64,000 nucleotides of DNA from Tetragonia tetragonoides (lineage: Eukaryota > Streptophyta > Magnoliopsida > Caryophyllales > Aizoaceae). The position numbers and the translations under genes are program-made. Under the pieces are notes generated by a model. That model was not told the DNA's origin. It saw nothing but the letters and a program-made list of their open reading frames with translations, and did not search any database. Positions 5,321 to 38,761 of the stretch are shown here, in pieces (the first letter of the stretch is position 1; the number at the start of each line of letters is the position of its first letter). The DNA is taken from NCBI GenBank assembly GCA_038025085.1, contig CM076147.1, positions 32,896,766 through 32,960,765 of the forward strand. Direction: 5' to 3'.

Positions 5321-8300
5321 ATGGGTTTTAGACCCATCCCCCTCGACGTGTCTAGGACCAATTTTCTATTGAGTCCTTTAGTTAATGGATCAGCCAAGTT
5401 CCTCTCGGACCTTATATACTCCATAGAGAGTACGCCAGTCTCAATCAAAAGTCTCACAGCATCATGCCTAATGCATATATGTCTTCTCTTACCATTATAT
5501 GCTTTATTCTTTGCAATACAAATTGCAGCCTGTGAGTCACAAAGTGAGAAACAGGAGGAGTAGGTTTACCCCAAAAAGGTAAATCAGCCAGTAGGACTCT
5601 CAACCACTCGGCCTCTTGTCCTGCCAAATCAAGAGCAATAAATTCCGATTCCATAGTGTATCGAGCAATAACGGATTGTTTAGTAGATTTCCATGATATG
5701 GCAGCACCACCTAGAGTGAATACATATCCACTAGTAGAACTTATTTCATCATTATCAGTTACCCAATTAGCATCACAATATCCCTCCAACACGGAAGGGA
5801 AACCAACATAATGCAAACCCAAGTCCATGGTACCTCTCAAGTACCTAAGTAAACGTCTAAGAGCAAACCAGTGCTCCCTACTTGGGTTATGGGTATATCT
5901 ACTAAGTCTACTAACTGCATATGCAATATCACGCCGAGTACAATTCATAAGAAACATTAAACTCCCAATTATCTTAGCATAATCAGATTGTGAAACACTT
6001 TCTTCTTTATTTTTCCTCAAAGTTATGCTAGCATCATAGGGAGTTCTTACTGGCGACACTTCAAAGCCATCAAATTTCTTCAAAATTTTCTCTACATAAT
6101 GTGATTGTGTTAAAATGAAACCCTTTTCAGTTTTATTAACCTTAACACCTAAAATCACATCAACTTCACCCAAATCCTTCATTTCAAAATGGGAGGAAAG
6201 GAAATTTTTAGTTTCATTAATGGCATTCATGTGTACTAAAAAGCAACATATCATCTACATATAAACAAATGATTACGCAATCAGAACCAAACAATTTAGT
6301 ATACACACATGTATCCGATCCATTAGGCACAAAACCAAACCCAAGCAAAGTTTTATGAAGTTTATCATACCACTGTTTTGGTGCTTGTTTAAGGCCATAT
6401 AAAGATTTCTTAAGTCTACACACTTTATGTTCTTGACGAGGAACAATAAAATCAGGAGGTTGTTCCATATAAATTTCTTCTTCTAAGTCGCCATGTAGAA
6501 AAGCCGTCTTTACATCCATTTGATGTACAAGTAAATTATGAATAGAGGCTAATGCAAACAAAGTGCGAATAGTGACGATCTTAGTGACAAATGAATATGT
6601 ATAAAAGAAATCTTCACCAAATTTCTGTTTAAACCCTTTAATCACAAGTCTAGCCTTAAACCTTTGAATTGAACCGTCAGCATTCAGTTTCTTAGTGAAA
6701 ACCCATTTACAACCAATGGAAGAAAGCCCTTTAGGTAGATTTACCAATTTCCAAGTGTGATTAGACATAATAGATTCTAATTCACTATTCATAGCATCTT
6801 TCCAGAAACTAGCATCAATTGATCCCACAGCTTCCTCATAAGTTTTGGGATACTCATCAATCATATAAGCATACAACAAAGGCTCACATAATTTATCCAA
6901 ATCCTGAATTTCAACAAGATGAGTAATAAAATCAGGACCAAAACTAGTTTCTATTATACGTCTTTTGCTAGTACGAATTACAGGTAATTCTGTTGTAACA
7001 GTAACAGCAGGCAAAGACATAGGAACAGAAGCAGGAACAACATGGGAAATATCATTTTTCTTCATAGGAAAAATATGCTCAAAAAAATCAGCATCTCTAG
7101 ATTCACATATAGTTCTATCACTCATATTCATGAATCTATAAGCAACACTATTAAGAGCATAACCAATAAACAAACAATCAATGGTTTTAGAACCAATATT
7201 AGTACGTTTAAAATCTGGTAGACCAACCTTAGCAAGACACCCCCACACTTTAAAGTATTTAAGGTTAGGCGCATAGCCTTTCCATAATTCATAAGGGGTT
7301 TTGTCTAATTTCTTATGAGGCACGCGATTAAGCAAATAATTAGAGGACAAAACGGCCTCCCCCCACATGCTCTCAGGTAACCCTGAACTTAAAAGCATAG
7401 CATTCATCATGTTCTTAAGGGTCCTATTCTTGCGCTTGGCAATCCCATTTTGTTGTGGGGTATAAGGAGTGGAGAGCTCATGTATGATACCATTTTTCTC
7501 ACAAACTTCCTTCAAGAAGGTTGTACCATACTCTCCACCCCTATCGGATCTTAATCGTTTTATTTTCCTATCTAACTGATTTTCTACTTCCGCTTTGTAA
7601 ATCAGAAATATTTTTTCAGCCTCATCTTTAGTCCTTAAAAGGTATACCTGGGTATATCTCGAATGGTCATCAACAAAAGTTATATAATATGTTTTGCCAC
7701 TTCTACTCTCAGTGTTTTTAAAGTCAGCTAAATCTGTATGAATTAATTCTAATAATTCAGTTACTCTCTCGGTTACAGATTTAAATGATTTTCTGGCATG
7801 TTTAGCTTCTACACAGATTTCACATTTAGAGAAACCATTGTCCACCAAATTAGGAATCAAGTTCATGCTTTTTAGCATTTTAACAGAATTGAGATTTACA
7901 TGTCCTAATCTAGCATGCCAAAGATCAATGGACTCAACAATATAAGCAGAAGTAGAAGCTTTATTAGTAACGTCCTCGATAACGACAGAGTCTAAAACAA
8001 ATAACCCCCCATTCAGATAGCCCTTCCCCACATATTCTCCATTACGGGTTAATACAAGTTTATCAGCATTAAAAGCTAACTTAACACCAGCTTTGTTAAG
8101 AAATGCACCCGAAATTAAGTTCCTGCGAAGAGAAGGCACATAAAGCACATTTTGTAAAGCTAAAGATTTTCCAGAAGTTAATTTCAGAAATATCTTCCCT
8201 TTACCAAGCACCTCGGAACTACTAGAGTTACTCATGAACACCTGTTCACCATCACCAGCATTCTGAAAATCAGAAAATAGGGTCCTGTTAGCACAAAAGT

Positions 8301-9351
8301 GCCTAGAGGCACCAGTGTCAACAATCCATTCAGTATTGTTACTGACCAGGTTCACCTCAGAAATGACAGCAGCAATGACATCTCCATTTTCAGCAATGTT
8401 GGCCTGGTTGCGGGGCTGGTCCTGGTTGTTCTGTCCATCTCTGCGTTTGAAGCATTGATGAGCTCTATGTCCAGGTTTTCCGCACACATAGCATAGGGGC
8501 CTAGGTTGTTGTTTCTGGATCTTGCCGTACTTCTTGAAAGGTCCAGACTTCTTGTTGTTGTGTGGTTTCTGTCCCTTCTTAGAGTTTCCAGCAGCATTAG
8601 ACCTGTCAAATTTAGCACCAGAAGATTCCACAAGGTTAGCCTTAACAGAAAGTTCATTGACAGAGGAAGAGGAACCCTTCTCCTTGAGGCGGTTTGCCTC
8701 CTCGATCTTCATATATCCGATTAATTCCTGCAAGGTCATATCTCTCTTCTTGTGTTTGAGATGAGCCCGGTAGTTTGTCCAAGATTTGGGCAGCTTATGA
8801 ATCAGGACATTAGCCTGCAGCACTTCACACATTTTCATCCCCTCAAGGAGGATATCAGCAACAAGGTTTTCATATTGATGAACTTGTGGCATGATAGGTT
8901 TGTCATCCACCAACTTGAACTCTAACCAGTCTCCAGTCACGTACTTCTTCTTCCCAGCATCATCAGCACCGTATTTCAACTCAAGTGTCTCCCATATAGA
9001 CTTAGCCGATTTGTTTTTGATGAACAGATCAAAAATCGGATTAGCCATATGAGATAACATATGTCCACGAGCCATCTTGTTGTCCTTATTATACTTCTCA
9101 ATGACCCCAGCATCATCCACCCTATCCTTGTCCTTCTTTTGCCCTGGAGAGGCATCAAGGACCACTGACGGAGTCACAGGAGTGGAAGGTTCAACAGCAG
9201 TAGTTTGAGTGGGAGCATCAGAAAATAGAACATAATCAACCTCCAACTGTTCAAGAAAAATCAAAACCTTTTGTGACCATCTCTTGTAATTAGAACCATC
9301 AAGAGCTTCGAGTTTGGAGAGATCAGGGATGAATTTCAAAAGAGAGGCCAT
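5321..9351 (-). pseudogene. Copia gag-pol polyprotein, broken
   Basis: Starts at an ATG at 9351. The first frame (to 6217, 1044 residues) holds gag, a CCHC knuckle at residues 287-300 (CYVCGKPGHRAHQC), protease motif DTGAS at about 345, a GAG-pre-integrase HHCC region around 478-520, an integrase core with D540 and D603, and reverse transcriptase ending just after YVDDML. A frame change at about 6217-6254 moves RT into the frame of 6254-5454, which carries the rest of RT and RNase H (TMESEFIAL). A second frame change near 5550 moves the tail into a third frame running to about 5320. The residue where integrase needs its catalytic Glu is Lys639 (NGIAKRKN). Domain order follows Copia; inactivity is inferred from two frame breaks and the Glu-to-Lys change. 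Confidence 0.9.
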
Positions 9352-9388
9352 TTGTGGTGGTAATACAGTAGATAAATCGCTTCTAAAT

Positions 9389-9756
9389 TGTTAGAAAATA
9401 CTACTGTAAAGCCAAAATTAAACAAAGAAAACAAGAATGAATGTGGGCCGAATGATTTACTGTAAAATAAATTGTTGTGTCGTGGTACGAAGGCCACTGC
9501 CTTAGAAGCGATTTCGCCCGGAATAGTGCAGTCAGAACAAGGCGTCGCCCCCCAAGGTTAGCACAACGCTCCTCTATTCCGTGCACTCGGAATGGAAGAG
9601 ATGGAACTCTACAAAACAATACTGCTCAGTTGGTTTTTTTTGGTGGAAGAAAATCGGTTTTTTTTTTTTGTATATCAAACTGATACAACATTCAGCAAAT
9701 AAATAACCAAAGAAGAGGATTCTGTAACTGGTGTAATCAAGCCAGTCATTAAACCA
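9389..9756 (-). repeat. Partial internal Copia LTR, copy 2
   Basis: Matches the first half of the 3' LTR from TGTTAGAAAATAC and stops abruptly at 'attaaacca', where it is fused through 'gagttc' to gag sequence. The copy at 10105-10470 has the same fusion point. Confidence 0.88.
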
Positions 9757-10067
9757 GAGTTCAAGAGGAACCCTTCTCCTTGAGGCGGTTTGCCTCCTCG
9801 ATCTTCATATGTCCGATTGATTCCTGCAAGGTCATATCTCTCTTCTTGTGTTTGAGATGAGCCCGGTAGTTTGTCCAAGATTCAGGCAGCTTATGAATCA
9901 GGACATTAGCCTGCAGCACTTCACACATTTTCATCCCCTCAAGGAGTTTGGAGAGCTTCGAGTTTGGAGAGATCAGAACCATCAAGAGCTTCGAGTTTGG
10001 AGAGATCAGAACCATCAAGAGCTTCGAGTTTGGAGAGATCAGGGATGAATTTCAAAAGAGAGGCCAT
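9757..10067 (-). pseudogene. Second gag 5' fragment, internally deleted
   Basis: Minus-strand gag from an ATG at 10067. After about 18 codons a 33 bp segment encoding LSKLEALDGSD-like sequence is repeated about 2.5 times (about 9950-10040). Sequence then jumps to the region encoding LLEGMKMCEVLQ and runs to KEKGSS before fusing to the partial LTR at 9756. Roughly 135 codons present in the other copies are missing. Confidence 0.85.
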
Positions 10068-10104
10068 TTGTGGTGGTAATACAGTAGATAAATCGCTTCT
10101 AAAT

Positions 10105-10470
10105 TGTTAGAAAATACTACTGTAAAGCCAAAATTAAACAAAGAAAACAAGAATGAATGTGGGCCGAATGATTTACTGTAAAATAAATTGTTGTGTCGTG
10201 GTACGAAGGCCACTGCCTTAGAAGCGATTTCGCCCGGACTAGTGCAGTCAGAACAAGGCGTCGCCCCCCAAGGTTAGCACAACGCTCCTCTATTCCGTGC
10301 ACTCGGAATGGAAGAGATGGAACTCTACAAAACAATACTGCTCAGTTGGTTTTTTTTGGTGGAAGAAAATCGGTTTTTTTTTTGTATATCAAACTGATAC
10401 AACATTCAGCAAATAAATAACCAAAGAAGAGGATTCTGTAACTGGTGTAATCAAGCCAGTCATTAAACCA
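10105..10470 (-). repeat. Partial internal Copia LTR, copy 3
   Basis: Nearly identical to 9389-9756 and truncated at the same base ('attaaacca' then 'gagttc'), showing both came from one rearranged unit. Confidence 0.88.
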
Positions 10471-10474
10471 GAGT

Positions 10475-11161
10475 TCAAGAGGAACCCTTCTCCTTGAGGC
10501 AGTTTGCCTCCTCGATCTTCATATGTCCGATTAATTCCTGCAAGGTCATATCTCTCTTCTTGTGTTTGAGATGAGCCCGGTAGTTTGTCCAAGATTCAGG
10601 CAGCTTATGAATCAGGACATTAGCCTGCAGCACTTCACACATTTTCATCCCCTCAAGGAGGATATCAGCAACAAGGTTTTCATATTGATGAACTTGTGGC
10701 ATGATAGGTTTGTCATCCACCAACTTGAACTCTAACCAGTCTCCAGTCACGTACTTCTTCTTCCCAGCATCATCAGCACCGTATTTCAACTCAAGTGTCT
10801 CCCATATAGACTTAGCCGATTTTTTTTTGATGAACAGATCAAAAATCGGATTAGCCATATATGATAACATATGTCCACGAGCCATCTTGTTGTCCTTATT
10901 ATACTTCTCAATGACCCCAGCATCATCCACCCTATCCTTGTCCTTCTTTTGCCCCGGAGAGGCATCAAGGACCACTGACGGAGTCACAGGAGTGGAAGGT
11001 TCAACAGCAGTAGTTTGAGTGGGAGCATCAGAAAATAGAACATAATCAACCTCCAACTGTTCAAGAAAAATCAGAACCTTTTGTGACCATCTCTTGTAAT
11101 TAGAACCATCAAGAGCTTCGAGTTTGGAGAGATCAGGGATGAATTTCGAAAGAGAGGCCAT
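10475..11161 (-). pseudogene. First gag 5' fragment (228 codons)
   Basis: Open on the minus strand from the ATG at 11161 and almost identical to the first ~228 residues of the main gag-pol. It ends at KEKGSS, where it fuses to the partial LTR at 10470. It lacks the zinc knuckle and everything downstream. Could be translated as a short capsid-like fragment, but no stop of its own is conserved. Confidence 0.85.
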
Positions 11162-11198
11162 TTGTGGTGGTAATACAGTAGATAAATTGCTTCTAAAT

Positions 11199-11767
11199 TG
11201 TTAGAAAATACTACTGTAAAGCCAAAATTAAACAAAGAAAAGAAGAATGAATGTGGGCCGAATGATTTACTGTAAAATAAATTGTTGTGTCGTGGTACGA
11301 AGGCCACTGCCTTAGAAGCGATTTCGCCCGGACTAGTGCAGTCAGAACAAGGCGTCGCCCCCCAAGGTTAGCACAACGCTCCTCTATTCCGTGCACTCGG
11401 AATGGAACTCTAGAAAACAATACTGCTCAGTTGGTTTTTTTTGGTGGAAGAAAATCGGTTTTTTTTTGTATATCAAACTGATACAACATTCAGCAAATAA
11501 ATAACCAAAGAAGAGGATTTTGTAACTGGTGTAATCAAGCCAGTCATTAAGCCATGGAACCGCGCACGTGTCACGAACCGACGGACGGACAGCGGCGGCG
11601 GCGCGCGCGTGGGAGAGTCTCCTTTCCAACTCAACTAAACCATACTAAAACATTGGAGTATATAAACCAATGAACCTTTTGTAAAACTACCAATGTGGGA
11701 CAAAACCTTTTACTCACAAAAAGAAACCCACTTGCAAATATCTTGAAGCTTGGCATTCTTTCCAACA
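11199..11767 (-). repeat. Copia 5' LTR (with ~140 bp deletion)
   Basis: The outer right LTR, ending CTTTCCAACA followed by TSD CCTTC. Relative to the left LTR it lacks the segment between 'gccatgga' and 'accgcgcac' and also 'agagatgga' near 11,400. Confidence 0.9.
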
Positions 11768-12295: not shown

Positions 12296-13348
12296 TTATG
12301 GCCCTCCTGGATTTCTATTCCAGGACAAATGGAAAGGATCCCCGAGTCGCCTAGGCTTGATAAGATATATAAGAGTGAATGTCATAGCCAAGAAGAAACA
12401 CAAGCCGCCTACAGTGAGGTAAGCAATGCCAAGGAAGACATTTTTCCCACCAAGCCAGCTAGTAGTCGAAAGTACCAACATCTTTTTTCCACCGAAGCTG
12501 TAGGTATTATATCTGTTCTGAAGAGTTACATTTAACACATCATTGACATCCAAATCCTGCTCTATCCTACCATACAATTTCCGAAAAGTAGGAAGTGCTG
12601 CAGTTTGCATCCATACAATCAAGTCCTCTTGCTCGCTAAGCGGGATAGATTCATCCAAATGAGCACCACCAATAAGGGTTCCATTCTGAAAGTTCTTTGG
12701 AAAAACATCCTTCCCAAATTTGTGCTCTCTATCACTTCTCCAAGAAATATTCTTCTTGTTGACAGTTAAGTTCTGGTATTTATTACCTATAGAAAAACTA
12801 TAGGTGTCATTGAACATGCTCCAAGCTATGAGACCGCATGGCACAATTGGCTTCCCATTAGCCATACCTTCCATTTTACAAGCACTAACTTGAGACTCAC
12901 TCTTTTTATGCCTCAACTGTATATCACTTCTGCTTTTCACATAAATTCTATGGTTCTGATAAAAGTGGTCAAGTTGATAGTAAATATAAATGGGTGCTTT
13001 CATAAACTTTGACACATTCAGTGACTTAATGCAGGTTTTATCCCCAGGACTTTTAATGATATCAACCCTCTCCTTGTTGCTCTTCCCCTTCAAGCAATCA
13101 TCATCGTATCGATAGACGATTTCGACGACTTCACGGGACGCAAACAGGGAAGCAACTCCAATAGGAATAAACACAATGCTGATAAGCATGAATGCAAAAA
13201 TTACCCATCGAGGTGTTAAGATTGGTTTGTATGCTGGTAGTTCTTGTTGAGTAAACTGTGAATACTTGGGTCTCCGCTTATCATTCCTTCTTATAGGAGA
13301 GTGATTGGCGGGTCCAGCAGAGCTTGATGTAGCAGGGTTTGAACTCAT
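12296..13348 (-). CDS. ALA-interacting subunit (ALIS), LEM3/CDC50 family
   Basis: An uninterrupted 350-residue CDC50 protein. CDC50/ALIS proteins are the non-catalytic beta subunits of P4-ATPase phospholipid flippases; they are needed for ER exit and activity of the ALA pump. Seen here: a cytosolic N-terminus, a transmembrane segment at about 48-70 (WVIFAFMLISIVFIPIG), a large luminal domain with paired cysteines and several N-glycosylation sequons (NVS, NDT, NLT, NIS, NGT, NVT), a second transmembrane segment at about 302-330, and the typical C-terminus KPRRLGDPFHLSWNRNPGG. Start chosen at MSSNPATSSS (13348); an in-frame ATG eight codons upstream is less likely. Length matches the family. 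The absence of introns may mean a retrocopy; that needs comparison with other family members. Which paralogue (1, 3 or 5) cannot be told. Confidence 0.93.
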   Translation of the reverse strand: MSSNPATSSSAGPANHSPIRRNDKRRPKYSQFTQQELPAYKPILTPRWVIFAFMLISIVFIPIGVASLFASREVVEIVYRYDDDCLKGKSNKERVDIIKSPGDKTCIKSLNVSKFMKAPIYIYYQLDHFYQNHRIYVKSRSDIQLRHKKSESQVSACKMEGMANGKPIVPCGLIAWSMFNDTYSFSIGNKYQNLTVNKKNISWRSDREHKFGKDVFPKNFQNGTLIGGAHLDESIPLSEQEDLIVWMQTAALPTFRKLYGRIEQDLDVNDVLNVTLQNRYNTYSFGGKKMLVLSTTSWLGGKNVFLGIAYLTVGGLCFFLAMTFTLIYLIKPRRLGDPFHLSWNRNPGGP

Positions 13349-13717
13349 CAGAAATAATGCTTCAATGAGCAAAATGATACCCAGGAAAAAATAAGAAAAA
13401 CCCAGATGAAATTAACCCAAAAGACTGCTTTTTTATCAAATCAAACCAACAAATATGGTGAAAAACAATGATGGGTAGCGAATTGAAGAAATAGATAGTT
13501 GGTTTGAGTGATTAGTTTAGGTTAATTGCGGTTTCTGATTTTTGGGTTTGGTAATAATCTTGTTGTTATTACCTTTTCTCTCTACTCTGAAAATTTGACA
13601 ATGTATAGCAGTATAGGAGAGAGAAATTGGGACACTAGAAGAAATAGAGAAGGGTTGAGGATTTAGTTTGGTTTTTAGGTTAATTGCGGATTTTTTTTGG
13701 GTTGGGGAGGCTTTCAA
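13349..13717 (-). promoter_or_regulatory. ALIS 5' UTR / proximal upstream region cut by a MULE
   Basis: AT-rich leader upstream of the ALIS start. The MULE is inserted 370 bp upstream of the ATG, so distal promoter sequence now lies beyond 20,048. No clear TATA box was assigned. Confidence 0.4.
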
Positions 13718-13726
13718 TTTTTTTAG

Positions 13727-13790
13727 GGTGTTACTAAATACCGCCCCTAAATTACCACCTACCGCCCCCCCCCCAAATTTCAATTTTGCC
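13727..13790 (+). repeat. MULE left terminal inverted repeat
   Basis: CTAAATACCGCCCC, then TACCACCTACCGCCCCCCCC and AAATTTCAATTTTGCCC; it pairs with the reverse complement of 19978-20038. Confidence 0.85.
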
Positions 13791-13969
13791 CTTTTATAAA
13801 TTTTGCACTCATCCTCTCCCTCTGTAACTCTCACACCACTCCCTCTCTAACACCCACTCTACCACCCACTCTCATAGCCAACCTTCATCAACATCGGATG
13901 TCTGCCGGCGACGAGGAAGTGCCGTCGACGGTGGCGGAGGTAAAAAAAAATTTTGCACATTTTTTTGCA

Positions 13970-14161
13970 CGGTCGTCTGCCGATCTCGACTCACCCTTGG
14001 GTGAGTCGTCTGCGATCGACGACCGACCCAAGGGTGAGTCGTCTGCTACAGGCGACTCACCCTTGGGCGAGTCGTCTGCTACAGGCGACTCACCCTTGGG
14101 TCGGTCGTCGGTCGCAGACGACTCACCCAAGGGTGAGTCGAGATCGGCAGACGACCGACAC
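13970..14161. repeat. Left subterminal array of five GC-rich palindromes
   Basis: Five ~20 bp near-palindromic cores of the type GACTCACCCTTGGGTGAGTC are spaced by GTCTGC(C)GATC or GTCTGCTACAGGC. The array sits inside the first intron of the transposase gene and is followed by A17 and (ATT)n. An inverted counterpart is at 19492-19683. Confidence 0.9.
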
Positions 14162-14177
14162 CGAAAAAAAAAAAAAA

Positions 14178-14185
14178 AATTATTA

Positions 14186-14242
<57 letters not shown>

Positions 14243-14244
14243 TA

Positions 14245-14342
<98 letters not shown>
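14178..14342. repeat. (ATT)n microsatellite, left
   Basis: About 165 bp of almost pure ATT repeats in the first intron of the transposase gene. The long Tyr/Ile reading frames over it are artefacts. Confidence 0.95.
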
Positions 14343-17092
14343 GTTTCTTCCATGGTCCAAACGGATTAACCTAACATTGTTTTCGTTGTTTTCGTTAGGT
14401 TTCTTTGGAGCGGTTCGGTGGTGATGGTGTTGATTACAGTACGCATTTTGTCACTGATGAGTTATTTGATAGTGATATAGATGCAATTAATTGGGCAAAA
14501 CAAATTGCCCTTACTATTGGGTTTGAGTTGATAATTTCGTCACACAAGAAGAATGGAAGCGTAAAATTGTTAAAATGCAATCGAGGTGAACGCTACAGAG
14601 GGGAATTAAGAGACTTAGATACTGCTGCTCGGAAGAAATCGAAAACAAAGGCTTGTAAATGTACGTTCCAGTTAAGAGCTCGGCAAGTGTATGGGTCCAG
14701 TAGTTGGATGATTGTCACATTGCCTGGGATTAGGGGTACGCACAACCATGACTTTGCTGTGTTTCCTGAGGGATATCGTCAGATGAGTGGTCTTAGTCCT
14801 GGGTCAAAGAAACTCGTTCGTGACATGACTTCGGCACAAACAAAGCCATGTGCTATCTTGGCCGCTATTAAGGAAAAATTTCCCGAGGACAATGCAACTA
14901 GACGGCATGTGTACAACCACAGAGATCGTATAAGGAAACTTGATTTTGAAGAGAGAGATGTCATTGGTCAGTTTCATCATTTAGCTGTGGAGAATAAGTA
15001 CGTACATTGGACAAGAGCCGACCGAGCTACTAATGAGGTAACTCACGTGTTCATGGCACACCCTACATCAATTCAGTTACTTCGGTCTTTTCGTTGGTTG
15101 ATTGACTTAGATTCCATGTACAAAACAAACAAGTATAAGATGTCGTTTCTTGAGATAGTGGGGATGACTCCAACCAATAAGAACTTCCTCATAGCTTATG
15201 CCATTATGAAGGATGAGACTCAGGCAAGCTATGCGTGGGTCTTAGATAAGTTGAGGATGCTTATTGGAAATGATGTACACCCAACAGCAATTGTGACCGA
15301 TCGTGAGCTAGGGTTGATGACACCTATTAGAGAGATATTTCCCGAGAGTGCCCATTTGCTCTGTACATGGCACATTAACAAAGTCGTTGAAGACAAAGTG
15401 TACAGACTTTGTGGAAAAGATAAGCTTGTCGCGCAGAGGTTCAAGAACGGGAGGTGAAAAATTATCATGGAAGCTTCCACAGAAGCTGTGTACGATAGAG
15501 CAGTGCGTACGATGAAGGTTAGTTGGAGGAATTACCCTCACGTGATATCCTATGTAGAGGAGACCTGGCTGAGATACAAAGAGATGTTTGTGGCTGCGTG
15601 GACGAATAAGGTGCTACACCTTGGCAACACTACGACTTGCAGGGTGGAGAGTGCACATGCCGCGCTAAAACAGTGGTTGAACTCCTCAACTGGAGCTTTG
15701 GACAATGTTTGGAACAAGGTCAACAAGTCAATCGAGTCACAAATAACTGAGATCAAGTACACACTTGAAGAGTGCAGAAGACGAAGAAGTGTGATGTACT
15801 CGGGTTTTCCATTCAACTATCTGACCGGGTATGTTTCCCATTACTGCTTACAAATATTATTGGCTGAGCTGAACAGGATGAGAGAATTGAGTCACCAAGT
15901 ATTTGATCGTTGCGGTTGTGTATTGAGATCCACTCATCAGATCCCGTGTGCATGTGAGTTGAAAACCGCCACGGATACGGGCACGCCAATTAGCTTGAAT
16001 AGTGTCCACAAATTTTGGCGAACACTCGTTATTAGTGATGCAGTGGAGATAGCTACGCTTGACATGACTGAGCATCCATCTAAGGACCATCGATACTTTC
16101 AGTCTCTGGTCGACGAGGTTAACTCAAGCGACCCGGCAGTTGTGCGCAACATATCTGTCCTTATGAATGAGCAGCTTCATCCTGAGGAAGCGAGTTACGT
16201 CGAGGCGGAAGCGAACACGACAGTCAGAGGTCGACCGAGAGGGAGTTCCTCTACCAGACGTGATCCTAGTTCATGGGAGTACTCCCAGAGGGGTCGTGGT
16301 CGCCCTAGGTCATCCAGTTCGAGCCGCGGGCGTGGTCGTACCTCATCCTCATCGAGTAACGTCGTGCGGAGTACTGGTATGAAAACCCATAATTTATTAA
16401 CATGTACATAATGTTGTTAATTACTTTCTGATAAGTACTATTAATGACTTTCTATTATATTGTCTTGCAGCTGGACACGGAATAGATATCACTGAATTCT
16501 ATCATGTTAACAAAATTCCGGGAATCATCATACCTTTCATTGAAGGATATCTCGATGTGGTTGGGGATGGTAATTGCGGTTTCCGTGTCATTGCGGACTA
16601 CGTTTTCGGAGACCAAGAGCAATGGCGATTGCAAGAGTTTGCATTGCAAACGAACTCTTAGCTAACCGACCATTGTACGAAACCCTATACGTTGAAGGGG
16701 TCGACGCTGGTTACCGCCGTATTATGTGGGACGGAGGTGCGTGTAACTATGATCACTGGATGATAGTAATTGAGGATTTGTTCCCGATTGCCAACCTCTT
16801 CAATGCAGCGATTATGTTATTCGGATACGGCAGCGGAAGGGGGTTATATTCTTGTTACACAGTGCTACCGTTGCAAGCACCTTCGACTGCTACACGTCCA
16901 AGTAGGGAAATTGTCATGTGTCATTTAGGTGATTCGTACATGCATTATATCCGTCTGGATTTAGCCCCAGATTTCCCTGTTCCTCCGATATGCGAAGCAT
17001 GGTTTACTTCCCGTTCTGATAGTGTCGCTGGTTGGGAGCAAATGTATGTTAGGCGAAGAGCACATTGGGATCATTTAGCGATGTCGACGTAA

Positions 17093-17320
17093 TTGAATGT
17101 TTTGCGTGATTGTTATACTTATATCATTGTCACATTTTTGTGTGATTGTTATATTTTGCATGTGGAGAGTGGTCGTGATTATTTGAGGTAAATAAAACAA
17201 CAAATTACAATAAAACAAAAAATGTAAATAAGAAACAACAAATTACAATAACACAAATAAATAACAATAACAATGAAACTCTTATATAAATATATAACAA
17301 ATTCATCTAGGGTCAATACA
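17093..17320. other. Short spacer between convergent MULE genes
   Basis: AT-rich 228 bp between the OTU stop and the PMD stop. It is rich in 'aacaataaca' strings and probably holds both 3' UTRs. Confidence 0.5.
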
Positions 17321-19315
17321 TCATTTGGCAGCCCGCCAATCTCTCATATACTCGTCCATTTGGGATCGAGAATCTTCCGCTTGCTCCGGAGGAATCAAAG
17401 TAATGGCCTGCTCATATAAGACGGCTAGACGATTCACCCACTGCAAAAAAGTAACAATGAGTGTGAGTTCAGAGATATGTAATACGTAAAAATATATATA
17501 TTTTAGTTAATCACTTACATAATCGTTGTTGGATCGTGGAGGAATCACAGGTGCTGCAGCGTCACGTATCAGCCGAGGGTGGGAGTGAAGGTAGTACCAT
17601 GCGAGGTAGTCATCCGTACATGCTGTGGGATCTGACGTGGATGCCTGAAACCCATGGAGACCAAGAATGTAAAATCCCGGGAACATACGCCAGGCATCAG
17701 ATGATATCCGTTCGGGGTAGACAACCTTGTACGAACGACTGCTCCATGACCTGATCGCTTTGTCTGGCCTAAAGATCGGGGAAGGGATACTCTGTACGTA
17801 CCCGATTTGTCGTAAACAACGACCAGGCATGTACGGTTCGATAATATCCCGATACCGTAGCCACCCCATGAATACAGTCCTCGGTACAGATACTGCCGGG
17901 TTAGAACCGTACGGCAGCCACACCACCTACGTAGAAATGTTGAAAGTTACGGTGAAGTAAAAAAAACATAGCAAACGACGAAATAAATCATGAACACCGA
18001 TAACTAAATGACGTACCTCTGACGCTCGCAGATGATCCAAGCGTCTACGTAAGGAGTGCAGTCGAACCACGTCCTTGCCCTCAGCCTGGGCACTCCATAC
18101 GTACGCACGGGGAGCCTCGTCGTCCCCGACAACCATCCGCTCCCGATGAGGTCGGAAGCAGGGAAAGTACTCGTATATCCATGCCTGGAGGAGAGTTAGG
18201 CATCCGCAGATGCCCTGAGAATCCCCGCGACTAGCTATACCGAGCTGACGATATAGGAAGGCGAGGGCAGCAGATCCCCAGGAGAAGTCATGCACCGTTT
18301 CGAAACCGTTGTCCATCACCTCCATCACGCAGGAGGGTCTAATACGGTTACCACTCTTGTCGACAAACAAGGTGGATCCAATAAGTAACCACATCCAAGC
18401 TGTCGCCTGGATGTCCTCCACTTGCTCACGGCAAAGCTCAAAAACCGACTCCGTGAGGACCGCACCGCCCTGCCAGTGGCTACACATCAGTTCATCTCGG
18501 GTGACCCCGAGAACCTCCATGGCCGCCATCTGCAGCTGCCCATCCCATCCCTCATTGGAAACGAGCTGTCCGTCTACAGGAATCCGAAGAATATGCCATA
18601 CATCGTGCAACATGATCGTCATCTCTCCGAACGGCATGTGGAACGAGTTCGTATCCGGCTGCCACCTTTCCACGAATGCAGATATCAGGGGGAAGTCAAT
18701 ATGTCTGAACATAATGTCTGCCAGGTGTGATAACCCAGTCCCCTCGATCTGGGCCCTCATCTCGGCCGACATCTCCGCTCGCCACTGACTCAGCCGCTGA
18801 CAGACACTGAATCGGTTCTGACACTTCAAGAGACCCCTCGTCTCTCCATTCCACATACGAGACGCTACGTGGCCCAGGAAGCTCGGTATGACGCTATCAT
18901 CCGCCGGCCCACCGGGCACAGGCTCTGTTACAAGCCACGTAGTGTCGTCCTCCGCTCTAGATCGTTTGCTAGTACTGGACGACCCAGTACTAACAAACCT
19001 ACCGCCTCTGCCCTTCACCACGCGCCAATCTGAGAATGATTCGACGCCAATCTGATCATCGTCCATGGACTGATCCTCGGAGTAGAACTCGCTACTTGCG
19101 TAATCGTCTTGCTCAGCAGTCATCTCCCTCATCCGAACTGCCTCTCTCTGTCTCCGTACAGAGGCATCAATCCCGCGCGTCCTTGTGTGACGCGGTCCTG
19201 AACCAGCTAGTTCACTAAATAACCTCGGCACCGATTTACCGGCTCCTCCCCATCTATCATTTCACATTTTTAATTAATTAAACAATAATCAATAATAATA
19301 ATAATAATAACGATA

Positions 19316-19377
<62 letters not shown>

Positions 19378-19409
19378 TAAAAATAAAAATAATAATAATA
19401 ATAACAATA

Positions 19410-19479
<70 letters not shown>

Positions 19480-19860
19480 TTTTTTTTTTTTTGTCGGTCG
19501 TCTGCGACCGGCGACTCGCCCAAGGGTGAGTCGTCGGCCGATCTCGACTCACAAAGGGTGAGTCGTCTGCGACCGGCGACTCACCCTTGGGCGAGTCGAG
19601 ATCGGCAGACGACTCACCCTTGGGTGAGTCGCCGGTCGCGGATGACTCACCCAAGGGTGAGTCGAGATCGGCAGACGATCGACAAAAAAAAAAAAAAAAA
19701 AATTCAACACAACTTCAATTCATAAGTTCGCGATTCAATTCAAGGCAAAAAAAATTCAATTCAAAAAAAAAAAAAAAAAAAATCGAAAAGTTAACCCCCC
19801 GCGATGCCGTCGGTCGCCGCCTCCCTCGCCGTCGAAGCCTCTGCCGCTAGCCCCTGACAT
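17321..19860 (-). CDS. Plant mobile domain (PMD) protein carried by the MULE
   Basis: Model with matching phases: exon 1 19860-19796, intron to 19254 (GT..ATAG), exon 2 19253-18017, intron 18016-17927 (GTACGT..CGTAG), exon 3 17926-17519, intron 17518-17441 (GTAAGT..TTGCAG), exon 4 17440-17321 ending TGA. Product 609 residues with no internal stop. The core matches the PMD (aminotransferase-like plant mobile domain) family: LSHLADIMFRHIDFPLISAFVERW, FHMPFGEMTIMLHDVWHILRIPVDG, then VVWLPYGSNPAV and CLRQIGYVQSIPSP. An acidic/charged N-terminus and short C-terminal tail flank it. PMD proteins such as MAIN/MAIL1 act in genome stability and silencing, and PMDs also ride on transposons. Role here unknown. 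Convergent with the transposase gene and in contrast to it intact, so it may still be expressed. Confidence 0.87.
19284..19482. repeat. (AAT)n microsatellite, right
   Basis: About 200 bp of AAT repeats (ATT on the minus strand) inside the first intron of the PMD gene, mirroring 14178-14342. Confidence 0.95.
19492..19683. repeat. Right subterminal array of five GC-rich palindromes
   Basis: Five cores of the GACTCACCC/GGGTGAGTC type, one shortened to GACTCACAAAGGGTGAGTC, lie in the first intron of the PMD gene. Read from the right TIR, the order array, poly-A, (ATT)n is the same as at the left end. Confidence 0.9.
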
Positions 19861-19977
19861 TCCGTTGTTCTTGGTGGTGGTGGTGGTGGTGGTGCCGCCG
19901 GTGTGATGGTGTGGTGGTGAGGATGAGTGAGAGTGAGTGAGGAAGAGAGGAAGGATGAGTGAGAGTGAGTGAGTGAG

Positions 19978-20038
19978 GGTAATATTGAAAATTGAGGGGG
20001 CGGTAGGTGGTAAAAAGGGGCGGTATTTAGCAATTCAC
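19978..20038 (-). repeat. MULE right terminal inverted repeat
   Basis: Reverse complement begins GTGAATTGCTAAATACCGCCCC and continues TACCACCTACCGCCCCC, matching 13727-13790 with a few mismatches. Confidence 0.85.
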
Positions 20039-20047
20039 TTTTTTTAA

Positions 20048-31889: not shown

Positions 31890-33030
31890 AAATTACCGTC
31901 GCGAAATACCGGAGGTCGTTTAGGGTGACGATAGACGACCCCACGGAGAAGTTGGACAAAACGGAAACTGGACCACGGGAAGCTGAAAATCAAAGGCTAT
32001 CATCCACGTTTTTTTTGGGTTTCTAAGAGGCCCCGTAACGAAGGAGGATATTTTCGCACCACATCGCACAGAACAACCTTAGGTAATATAAGAGGCCCCC
32101 GGGGTCCGTTATCGTGTCCCTGGCAATGTAAGGGCCGTAACACACAAAACATGGGTAATATCAAAGTTCGGGGATTCGAATGACCCTCCCGGAGCACCTA
32201 GAGTCCTCTAGGGTCATGATAAAGCGCCCGGAGAAGTTTGGACAAAAATGACACCCGGCCCCGGAAGCCGAAAACGAAAGCTATATATAATCCACGTTTT
32301 TTGGGCTTCCGGGAGGCCACGAAACGAAGGTGGATAGTTTTGCGCCAGATCACACGGAACTCCCCTAGGGAATATGGGAGGCCTTCGGGGTCGCTTATCC
32401 TGTCCCTGGTAGGGTTGGAAGGGCGTTTTAAGGGACACTAGTGTAAGAGTTGGAACACCAAAGGCATAAGTGATATCGAAGTTCGGGGATGCAGATGACC
32501 CTCATGGGGCACCGAGTGTCCTATAGGGTCATGATAGACGTCCCAAAAAAGTTTAGACAAAAATTACATCCGGGCCCCGGGAAGCCGAAAGTGAAGGCTA
32601 TAATCCACGTTTTTTGCTCTTTCTGGAGGCCCCGGAACAAATGTATATATTTTCGCACCACATCGCCCGAAATACCCCTAGGGGACATGGGAGGCCCTTG
32701 GGATTGCTTTTCCGATCCCTGATAGGTTTGGAAGGGCGTTTTATAGGACACTAGTGTAAGAGTCGGAAAACCAAAGGCATGGGTAATATCGAAGTTAGGG
32801 GATTCGGATGACCCTCACGGGATATTGAGGGTCCTCTAAGGTCATGGTACACCCCAAGGAGAAATTTGGGCAAAAATGACATCCAAGCCCCCGGAAGTCG
32901 AAAATGAAGACTATATAATCCATGTTTTTTTTAGCTTACGAGAGGCCTTGGAATGAAGATAGATATTTTCGCACTACATCGCACACAACACCCCTAGGGG
33001 ACATGAGAGACCCCCGTGGTAGGTTATGGG
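31890..33030. repeat. GC-rich tandem repeat, ~315 bp period, about four copies
   Basis: Equivalent strings 'gagaagtttggacaaaaatgac' start near 31,950, 32,230, 32,548 and 32,860. Each copy has 'ggtcatgata', 'ccggaagccgaaa', 'atccacgttttt', 'cgcaccacatcgcac', 'cccctaggg' and 'gggaggcc' blocks in the same order. Copies are 281-315 bp apart and diverged. Short frames across it are not coding. Confidence 0.85.
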
Positions 33031-36572: not shown

Positions 36573-37327
36573 TGTTGAGGTAACGCCCCAAATACCAAAT
36601 AATATTTAGTTGTGTTTTATTTTATTTTAGTTTTGTAAAGAAAATAAAATAGAACAAAAAGAAAAGAAAAACAAAAAGACAAAAAAAAAGGAAGTTGAAA
36701 GATGGGAAAACAAAAAGGTTTAAGCCTTTTGGTTTTCTTTAGTTGATGATTGGGAAACAAAAGGTCTTAGCCTTTTGGTCTTCTTTAGTGGTTGATGATT
36801 GAATATAAAAGGGACAAGCCCTTTGTTTTTGCAATAGCCAAGTGATTGAGTTTGGCAGTAAAAGGAAGCCCAAACAAAACGAAAGAAAGGAGAGCCAAGT
36901 GAGTGAGAGACAAACAAAGTGTGAGAGAAATTGAGTATTTCTCCAAAGAGGTTTGTTCCAGTTCACGGTTGATTCGGTTTGTTCGGGTGAAGGTAATCGC
37001 AGTATTCGGATCGGTCATCGACAGGTATTTGTGGGTGTATCTTTGGTTTTGTGGGAGTACCAAATTGAGTTAGAGTTTGTCAATTTGTACTAGTACCAAA
37101 GATAGATAGTCTACTTGTTGATTGATCTTGTGATTGTTGCCGATTGTACTCTTGATAATTATAGTGGATTATTGTTTAGTGCGTGGAGATCCGCACCGTG
37201 GTTTTTCCCCTAATTGAGAGGGGTTTTCCACGTAAAATTGTTTGTGTTGTTTTTTGGGTTCTTGCACTTTATTTTTCCGTTTATCTGTTGTTGTGATTGT
37301 GGGTAAATACCGTAGTTTTCCCCAACA
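36573..37327 (+). repeat. 5' LTR of the gag-pro element
   Basis: 755 bp, TG...CA. Differences from the 3' LTR were noticed near the 'aaaggTttaagcc', 'atagccAagtg', 'gtaatcgCagt' and 'cttgatAatta' strings. Confidence 0.95.
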
Positions 37328-37328
37328 G

Positions 37329-37340
37329 TGGTATCAGAGC
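37329..37340 (+). other. Primer-binding site (tRNA-iMet)
   Basis: TGGTATCAGAGC, one base after the LTR end; this is complementary to the 3' end of plant initiator tRNA-Met. Confidence 0.93.
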
Positions 37341-37411
37341 TTTTGGTTGTAGGATCGGTGGTGGGAAAATTACTGTATTTGTTGAAGGAGGAATTATTTT
37401 GTGCAAGTAAC

Positions 37412-38761
37412 ATGTCTGGTAGTGTGCCCAAATTTGAAATCCCTTTGTTTGATGGTAAAATTAATTTTACTGTGTGGAAGAGTACGGTTGAGGATTTGTT
37501 GGTTCAACAAAATTTAGATGAGGCTTTAGATGAGACAAAGCCTAGTGGGGTGACCGATGCCCAATGGACATCGAAAAAGAAGAAAGCTGTCAGTACTATT
37601 AGATTGGCTATGGCTCTGGAGATCAAGTATAATTACTTGACTGAGACAGATCCAAAGAAGTTGTTGGATAAGCTCCAGAGTGTATATGCATCAAAGTCAC
37701 TGACTAACAAGCTTTGTTTGAGATATGAGTTGTACCAGCTAAAGATGGAGCAAGGTACAGCGTTGCAGGACCACATTAACAGTTTTAACCAGCTAGTATG
37801 TCAGTTGAGAAATGCAGATGAGAAGATCTCCGATCAAGAGGAGGCATTGTTATTGTTGGCTTCACTACCCAAGTCCTACAGGCCAATTGTGCAGACATTA
37901 CTTGTAGGGAGGACAGAGATTACACTAGATGAAGCAATGACAGTGTTGAGAGAGAATGATCGGATGATGTTGCAGGTTGATGGTGTATCTCCTAGTGATG
38001 GAGGAGATAGAGTACTAGCTGCGGAGGTGTCCGAAAGAGGGAGGAATCATGAGAGAAGAGGAGGTGGCCCGAGAAAAAGATCGAAGTCGCGCGCGAGAGA
38101 CTTTAGTAACATAGAGTGTTACTATTGTGGTGAGAAGGGTCATATTCAGAGTCGTTGCCCAAAGATGAGAGATGATTTGAAGAGTTTCAAGCAGCTGCAA
38201 GAGAAGATGGGTAAGACCAAAATTGATGATGATAGCGGTTCCTCTAATGTAATTATGTCTTGTGATGGTAATAAGGAGTTGTTCTTGGCTAGTGACAATG
38301 AGGGGAAGGAAAGCCAAGAGAGTTGGGTGTTGGACTCCGGCGCTTCGGTTCACATTTGTAGAGACCATGCTATGTTTGATACTTTGTGCCAAGATGGAGA
38401 GTATGGTGACATCAACATGGGGAGTGGTAAGTTGAAGGTGAAAGGGATGGGTAGCATCCGAATTGAGCTCCATGGTGGTGTGACTAGAACTTTCCACAAT
38501 GTGAGGTATGTACCCGATGCTCGTGTTAACGTGATTTCGTTGGGTGAGTTGACATCGCAAGGGTGTAGATACATTGGTACGGGAAGATGGTGCAAAGTGT
38601 ATCGTGGTGCTACTTTGATTGTGCAAGGGAGGAAGGCGGAGAACAACTTGTGCTATGTTGAGGGTCATTGCGTAGGGAGGAGCAAGACCGTGAAGAAGAA
38701 GGTCTGTTTTTCGGACAAGGTGGAAGTATTTGGTGATTTGGGTCGAGGGAGGATTTGTTGA
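37412..38761 (+). CDS. Gag-protease protein of the non-autonomous LTR element
   Basis: Intact 449-residue frame from ATG 37412 (MSGSVPKFEIPLFDG); the frame is open further upstream but without an ATG. A Copia-type gag (UBN2-like, 'W.....L..SL...', LPKSYRPIVQTLL) is followed by an Arg-rich stretch, a CCHC knuckle at residues 236-249 (CYYCGEKGHIQSRC) and a protease active-site motif DSGAS at 308-312 with the downstream VRYVPDARVNVISLG block. After the protease a short basic stretch ends in a stop at the first bases of the 3' LTR. This is a clean loss of integrase-RT-RNase H, since the reading frame, primer site and polypurine tract are kept. It resembles gag-only non-autonomous elements of other plants in principle; family not identified. 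Confidence 0.9.
   Translation: MSGSVPKFEIPLFDGKINFTVWKSTVEDLLVQQNLDEALDETKPSGVTDAQWTSKKKKAVSTIRLAMALEIKYNYLTETDPKKLLDKLQSVYASKSLTNKLCLRYELYQLKMEQGTALQDHINSFNQLVCQLRNADEKISDQEEALLLLASLPKSYRPIVQTLLVGRTEITLDEAMTVLRENDRMMLQVDGVSPSDGGDRVLAAEVSERGRNHERRGGGPRKRSKSRARDFSNIECYYCGEKGHIQSRCPKMRDDLKSFKQLQEKMGKTKIDDDSGSSNVIMSCDGNKELFLASDNEGKESQESWVLDSGASVHICRDHAMFDTLCQDGEYGDINMGSGKLKVKGMGSIRIELHGGVTRTFHNVRYVPDARVNVISLGELTSQGCRYIGTGRWCKVYRGATLIVQGRKAENNLCYVEGHCVGRSKTVKKKVCFSDKVEVFGDLGRGRIC

Follow-up and report, generated by a model that had tools for sequence, protein, structure and literature searches.

What role could a PMD gene play in a MULE whose two genes start just inside its opposite ends, each followed by an intron carrying palindromes? 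This question is raised by a locus within a 64,000-nucleotide window (the whole stretch of Tetragonia tetragonoides DNA analysed here), where a preliminary description had placed a transposase-OTU gene and a PMD gene at 13727-20038.

Ends and features of the element

Judged from its sequence, the 6313 bp at 13726-20038 are a high-copy plant MULE with two convergent genes. Comparison with other copies moved the start by a single base, to 13726, and otherwise upheld the span first described. TIRs accompanied by a target duplication of 8-11 bp are typical of MULEs, and both were found here. Full-length reading covered 20 rows (the window and 19 copies), from which L053 and L067, having no recognised left end, were excluded to leave 18 two-ended copies. 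The features of the window copy are as follows (. denotes no strand):

13718..13725,., target-site duplication TTTTTTTA, left copy (from copy comparison)
13726..20038,., whole MULE, 6313 bp (ends set by comparison of the 18 two-ended copies)
13726..13795, +, left TIR, starting GGGTGTTACTAAATACCGCCCC
13898..13939, +, predicted transposase leader exon (MSAGDEEVPSTVAE), recurring in other copies
13940..14398, +, predicted transposase intron 1
13970..14157,., left palindrome array (five units, spaced 33 bp apart)
14164..14342, +, left poly-A and (ATT)n
14399..16376, +, transposase main exon with the MULE domain (interrupted in the window copy by a TGA stop at 15455)
16377..16470, +, predicted intron preceding the OTU-like exon
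16471..17092, +, OTU-like exon with DGNC motif (window copy frameshifted near 16632; fold predicted for a relative)
17321..17440, -, predicted PMD exon 4
17519..17926, -, predicted PMD exon 3
18017..19253, -, PMD exon 2, with the bulk of the domain
19284..19489, -, (ATT)n and poly-A of the first PMD intron, as read on the - strand
19497..19690,., right palindrome array, four units (<=4 mismatches) and degenerate sequence
19796..19860, -, predicted PMD leader exon (MSGASGRGF...), recurring in other copies
19971..20038, -, right TIR, starting GTGAATTGCTAAATACCGCCCC on the - strand
20039..20046,., target-site duplication TTTTTTTA, right copy (from copy comparison)

Across the 18 copies the TIR alignment covers ~67 nt at a mean identity of 83%, and in the window copy the two TIRs align with a score of 67 against a shuffle maximum of 33. 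The 8-bp target duplication is perfect in 12 of the 18 copies, has one mismatch (8 or 9 bp) in five and is absent from one. In L057, L059, L061, L068 and L071 its sixth base is G on the right and A or T on the left, a pattern that covers all five one-mismatch duplications. The TIR pattern also matches 22 stretches in viral contigs, in which the palindrome pattern has 0 matches.

Two convergent genes

A Pfam scan found the MULE transposase domain PF10551 on the + strand (E=4e-25, above the cut-off) and the PMD domain PF10536 on the - strand (E=2.3e-44), in agreement with the convergent arrangement first proposed. The suggested leader exons, MSAGDEEVP... and MSGASGRGF..., also held up, as both are predicted to join in frame through GT/AG sites and both recur in other copies.

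The GT/AG sites of the transposase leader are conserved in all 16 rows (window and 15 copies). The window copy of this gene is broken, by the stop and by the frameshift in its OTU-like exon. Among 15 other whole-gene copies, a count that omits L053, L054, L067 and L071, the frame is open over 880 residues in six, is free of stops over the part examined in one and meets an early stop in eight. A CGC...PCAC motif is visible by eye in the transposase; Pfam reports no SWIM domain at E up to 1. The predicted structure of a relative has an OTU fold, while Pfam scans found no OTU family in the window pieces (E<=1) or in ten relatives (E<=0.01), eight of these transposase-side (P0127 lies outside this set). 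DGNC and a later His can be seen by eye in relatives, and we take this Cys and His to be the OTU catalytic residues. P0153 of Mercurialis annua, which is related to one part of the transposase (60% over 30% of the query), bears a Ulp1 protease domain.

The PMD gene of the window has four predicted exons and an open frame of 609 residues. It was compared with 39 other copies, the resulting 40 being the best scoring of 1382 candidates, so that the set leans to intact copies. Exons 2-4 total 1764 nt in all 39 and are open in 25, and 38 retain the splice dinucleotides at both downstream introns. Relative to these copies, the window copy has an altered leader donor and, where exon 2 begins, one added base; the two changes jointly leave the frame open. 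Within the family purifying selection on PMD was not seen (dN/dS 0.97, 39 copies).

A pattern search of the 39 copies gave PMD leaders of 72 nt in 26 and 71 nt in six, with single copies at 45, 66, 75, 78 and 94 nt; the pattern was missed in two, one of which, L057, has a leader of 51 nt by alignment. Length changes are mostly frame-preserving; those of 71 and 94 nt, seven of the 39, are out of frame, which argues against the leader frame being strictly required. In most copies the first codon of exon 2 is ATG. It is lacking in L054, L057 and L069, where exon 2 starts RGGAGKS, and in L071, where it starts IGGAGKS; initiation in these four would therefore need the leader, and that of L069, as measured, is out of frame.

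A high-copy family with a probable recent burst

Exact tags searched in the same genome were found 1068 times for the right end, 1031 for PMD, 902 for the transposase and 6235 for the palindrome, against 0 for each reversed control, which points to roughly a thousand copies. Contig C1 carries 59 PMD tags, of which 48 are paired with a transposase tag at a distance of 1.2-4 kb (2.09-2.17 kb in 44 of these pairs) on the expected side and strand, and 34 of the 59 have an exact right end where expected; 37 of 71 right ends lack an exact PMD tag, which we put down to mutation or deletion. The tag pairing excludes, for this family, that PMD is an unrelated nested insertion, and bears out the two-gene MULE of the preliminary description, with PMD as an integral part. 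The mean synonymous difference of 0.021 between 39 PMD copies was read as a recent burst.

Separate from these copies, two clusters of 12 PMD matches each lie at C9:42.07-42.32 Mb and C15:4.41-4.61 Mb. Of the 24 matches, 21 have no stop, and most hold a near whole domain in one exon; they may be arrays of host PMD genes, or a different element.

The highest identity among named relatives of the element was found in Orobanche (PMD 64% over 85%, transposase 70% over 49%). Mercurialis is the best named transposase match by E-value (58% over 98%), with an identity below that of Orobanche, as is also the case for the Spinacia and Chenopodium relatives. The adjoining gene at 12299-13411 belongs to the CDC50/ALIS family; its best named match by E-value is from Olea (63% over 89%), and its top identities among named matches are with Amaranthus, Saponaria and Gypsophila (78-79% over 89-94%). 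Among named relatives, the element proteins are thus nearest to those of Orobanche (Lamiales; relatives P0001 and P0135), whereas the host gene looks Caryophyllales, and patchy descent or horizontal transfer of the element is possible. The insertion is upstream of the CDC50/ALIS gene by a few hundred bases, likely in its promoter, and the gene reads away from the element. Elsewhere in the window, pieces of Copia-type retrotransposons and a tandem repeat of 313 bp occur at 5457-11200, 32155-33013 and 37316-38758.

Palindrome arrays at both ends

The array unit is GACTCACCC(WW)GGGTGAGTC, with a spacing of mostly 33 bp. Matches to the palindrome number 16 in the window, spread over 9 places, whereas 100 shuffles gave 0. 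Both first introns had been reported to contain palindromes, poly-A and (ATT)n, as we also find: array units occur in both in all 18 two-ended copies (none mid-element), (ATT)n at both ends in all 18 and poly-A of at least 8 at both ends in 16. The number of five palindromes per intron applies to the left one only; the right has four (<=4 mismatches for both), and the other copies have 1-7 per end. The right array is retained in all 40 PMD copies (<=4 mismatches), and among the palindromes listed genome-wide 47 of the first 50 have a family tag within 7 kb. A variant array at C1:256477-256628, with the core CCCATGGG and a 66-bp spacing, has a PMD tag (257800) ~1.2 kb away and may represent a sister family whose target has changed.

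The homology between the two ends proved less extensive than the single mirrored block of 620-750 bp initially suggested. In the window copy the arrays align left to right with a score of 171 (maximum 32 in 300 shuffles), as the TIRs do, whereas the leader stretch scores 29 against a maximum of 27; none of the 300 shuffles reaches 29, so that homology there is marginal. Moreover, mean 12-mer overlap in the 18 copies is 0.35 left to left and 0.33 right to right, compared with 0.21 left to right, which indicates that each end has its own history. With leaders at best marginally alike and no extra likeness between a copy's two ends, the idea of one promoter-leader-intron module carrying swapped cargoes was not borne out. 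Nor did the two arrays within a copy show concerted homogenisation, as 1888 of 2000 shuffled pairings were equally or more alike (18 copies).

Possible function of the PMD protein and the arrays

The predicted structure of the PMD protein has a VANC fold, by its match to VANC21 (PDB 9lnj). The superposition is loose, and a sequence comparison with VANC21, at E up to 10, found 0 matches. VANC21 binds short motifs in the non-coding tandem repeats of VANDAL21, located in introns and terminal regions, and causes methylation loss; these repeats grow and shrink fast, and RdDM targets similar regions, according to the available text of PMC5735166 and PMC10398659.

Given a second gene with a predicted VANC fold, arrays nearly confined to the family and their intron placement by presumed promoters, we infer an anti-silencing role. 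The PMD protein would bind the palindrome arrays inside both ends, binding would relieve DNA methylation, and the promoters of the element would thereby stay clear of host silencing. With targets in promoter-adjacent introns, as in VANDAL21, one protein could open both genes and spare unrelated host sequence. The OTU domain, for its part, may strip ubiquitin and so stabilise the transposase or partner proteins. We give about even chances to this reading, in which a MULE with an OTU-like transposase and a VANC-fold PMD protein keeps its own promoters unsilenced through both arrays. Against it, a fold is not a function, the superposition is loose and no constraint on PMD was seen within the family; moreover, binding of the arrays by the transposase would be an equally simple use.

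In that case the arrays would be subterminal transposase binding sites and PMD a helper of integration or expression, as mudrB in MuDR, which we consider rather unlikely. The terminal position of the arrays at both ends (18/18) speaks for such sites, and mudrB is apparently needed for integration (PMC6446971, available text). Contig C1 also has two compact loci (near 978.1-979.0 kb and 2274.6-2275.4 kb) at which pattern matches give an exact TIR and palindromes and no PMD tag, which fits a need in cis for mobilisation. However, several copies are down to one unit at an end, the fold match to VANC21 would go unused, and MURA binds a ~32-bp motif in the TIR (PMC3310237, available text), and a TIR is present here as well.

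That the arrays are intronic hairpins yielding small RNAs, as a silencing mark or decoy with no protein reader, seems improbable to us. Folded as RNA (221 nt), both do form long hairpins, with raw energies of -198.6 and -165.2 kcal/mol, but palindrome arrays fold well regardless of function, and why the element also has a VANC-fold gene would go unexplained. Functionless satellites, spread by slippage and hitch-hiking in introns, would account for the variable unit number and the variable length of the adjoining (ATT)n; yet at least one unit persists at both ends in 18/18 copies and the right array in 40/40, although these copies are young and were chosen by PMD similarity, and we hold this account to be very improbable. 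Returning to anti-silencing, a broader proposal is that PMD and VANC form one family of transposon-born DNA-reading domains, that PMD-bearing MULEs unsilence themselves by binding arrays of their own making in the first introns of both genes, and that the plant silencing factors MAIN and MAIL1 are host members with the opposite output; this we put forward tentatively, at somewhat less than even chances.

Comparison with known systems

The second gene of MuDR is mudrB, whereas that of the window MULE is PMD. To our knowledge, mudrB is unrelated to PMD. In maize MuDR, as in the window MULE, the two genes converge and each begins just inside a TIR, and in MuDR the TIRs drive them; arrays and leader introns, unlike here, are not described for it in the available text (PMC3310237). 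PMD antisense to the MULE transposase is listed for several plant groups, and MUDR, MUDRAVI2, MULE-Solanaceae_1 and others (Dupeyron et al. 2019, PMC6446971) share the MULE transposase, TIRs, short target duplication and opposite-strand PMD. Compared by description, and within the text available, no OTU domain or terminal palindrome array is named for these groups, unlike the window MULE. The cnidarian MULE MuDR-6_HM (PMC6446971, same text) shares the OTU domain and belongs to another MULE group in an animal host.

Ikeda et al. 2017 (PMC5418596, available text) described MULE-captured PMD-C fused with the transposase in grasses and Amborella, and speculated on anti-silencing by MULE-borne PMD. 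The window MULE differs in its separate, convergent PMD gene, eudicot host, candidate target sequence and fold match. A review, in the part available, pairs VANC21 and, speculatively, TE-made PMD as counter-silencing strategies (PMC8616336); a candidate PMD target and the fold match are absent from the text on counter-silencing seen of both papers. Neither a two-gene MULE that combines OTU and PMD with mirrored arrays nor a structural likeness of PMD to VANC was found in the literature searched, so far as its text was available; the VANC21 structure paper may already state the latter.

VANDAL21/Hiun with VANC21 (PMC5735166, PMC10398659, available text; PDB 9lnj) shares the predicted fold and the tandem intron and terminal arrays. 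The window MULE has palindromic units at 33-bp spacing where VANDAL21 has directional 9-bp motifs, and its PMD is without detectable sequence similarity to VANC21. PMD is called a domain of unknown function (PMC8616336), yet numerous MULEs of plants have it (PMC6446971), as do silencing factors of the host (PMC5418596), according to the available text of each. A predicted VANC fold and a candidate target in about a thousand young copies turn the question of its function into a simple binding test and, if the proposed role is true, sequence-specific anti-silencing would reach past the Arabidopsis VANDALs.
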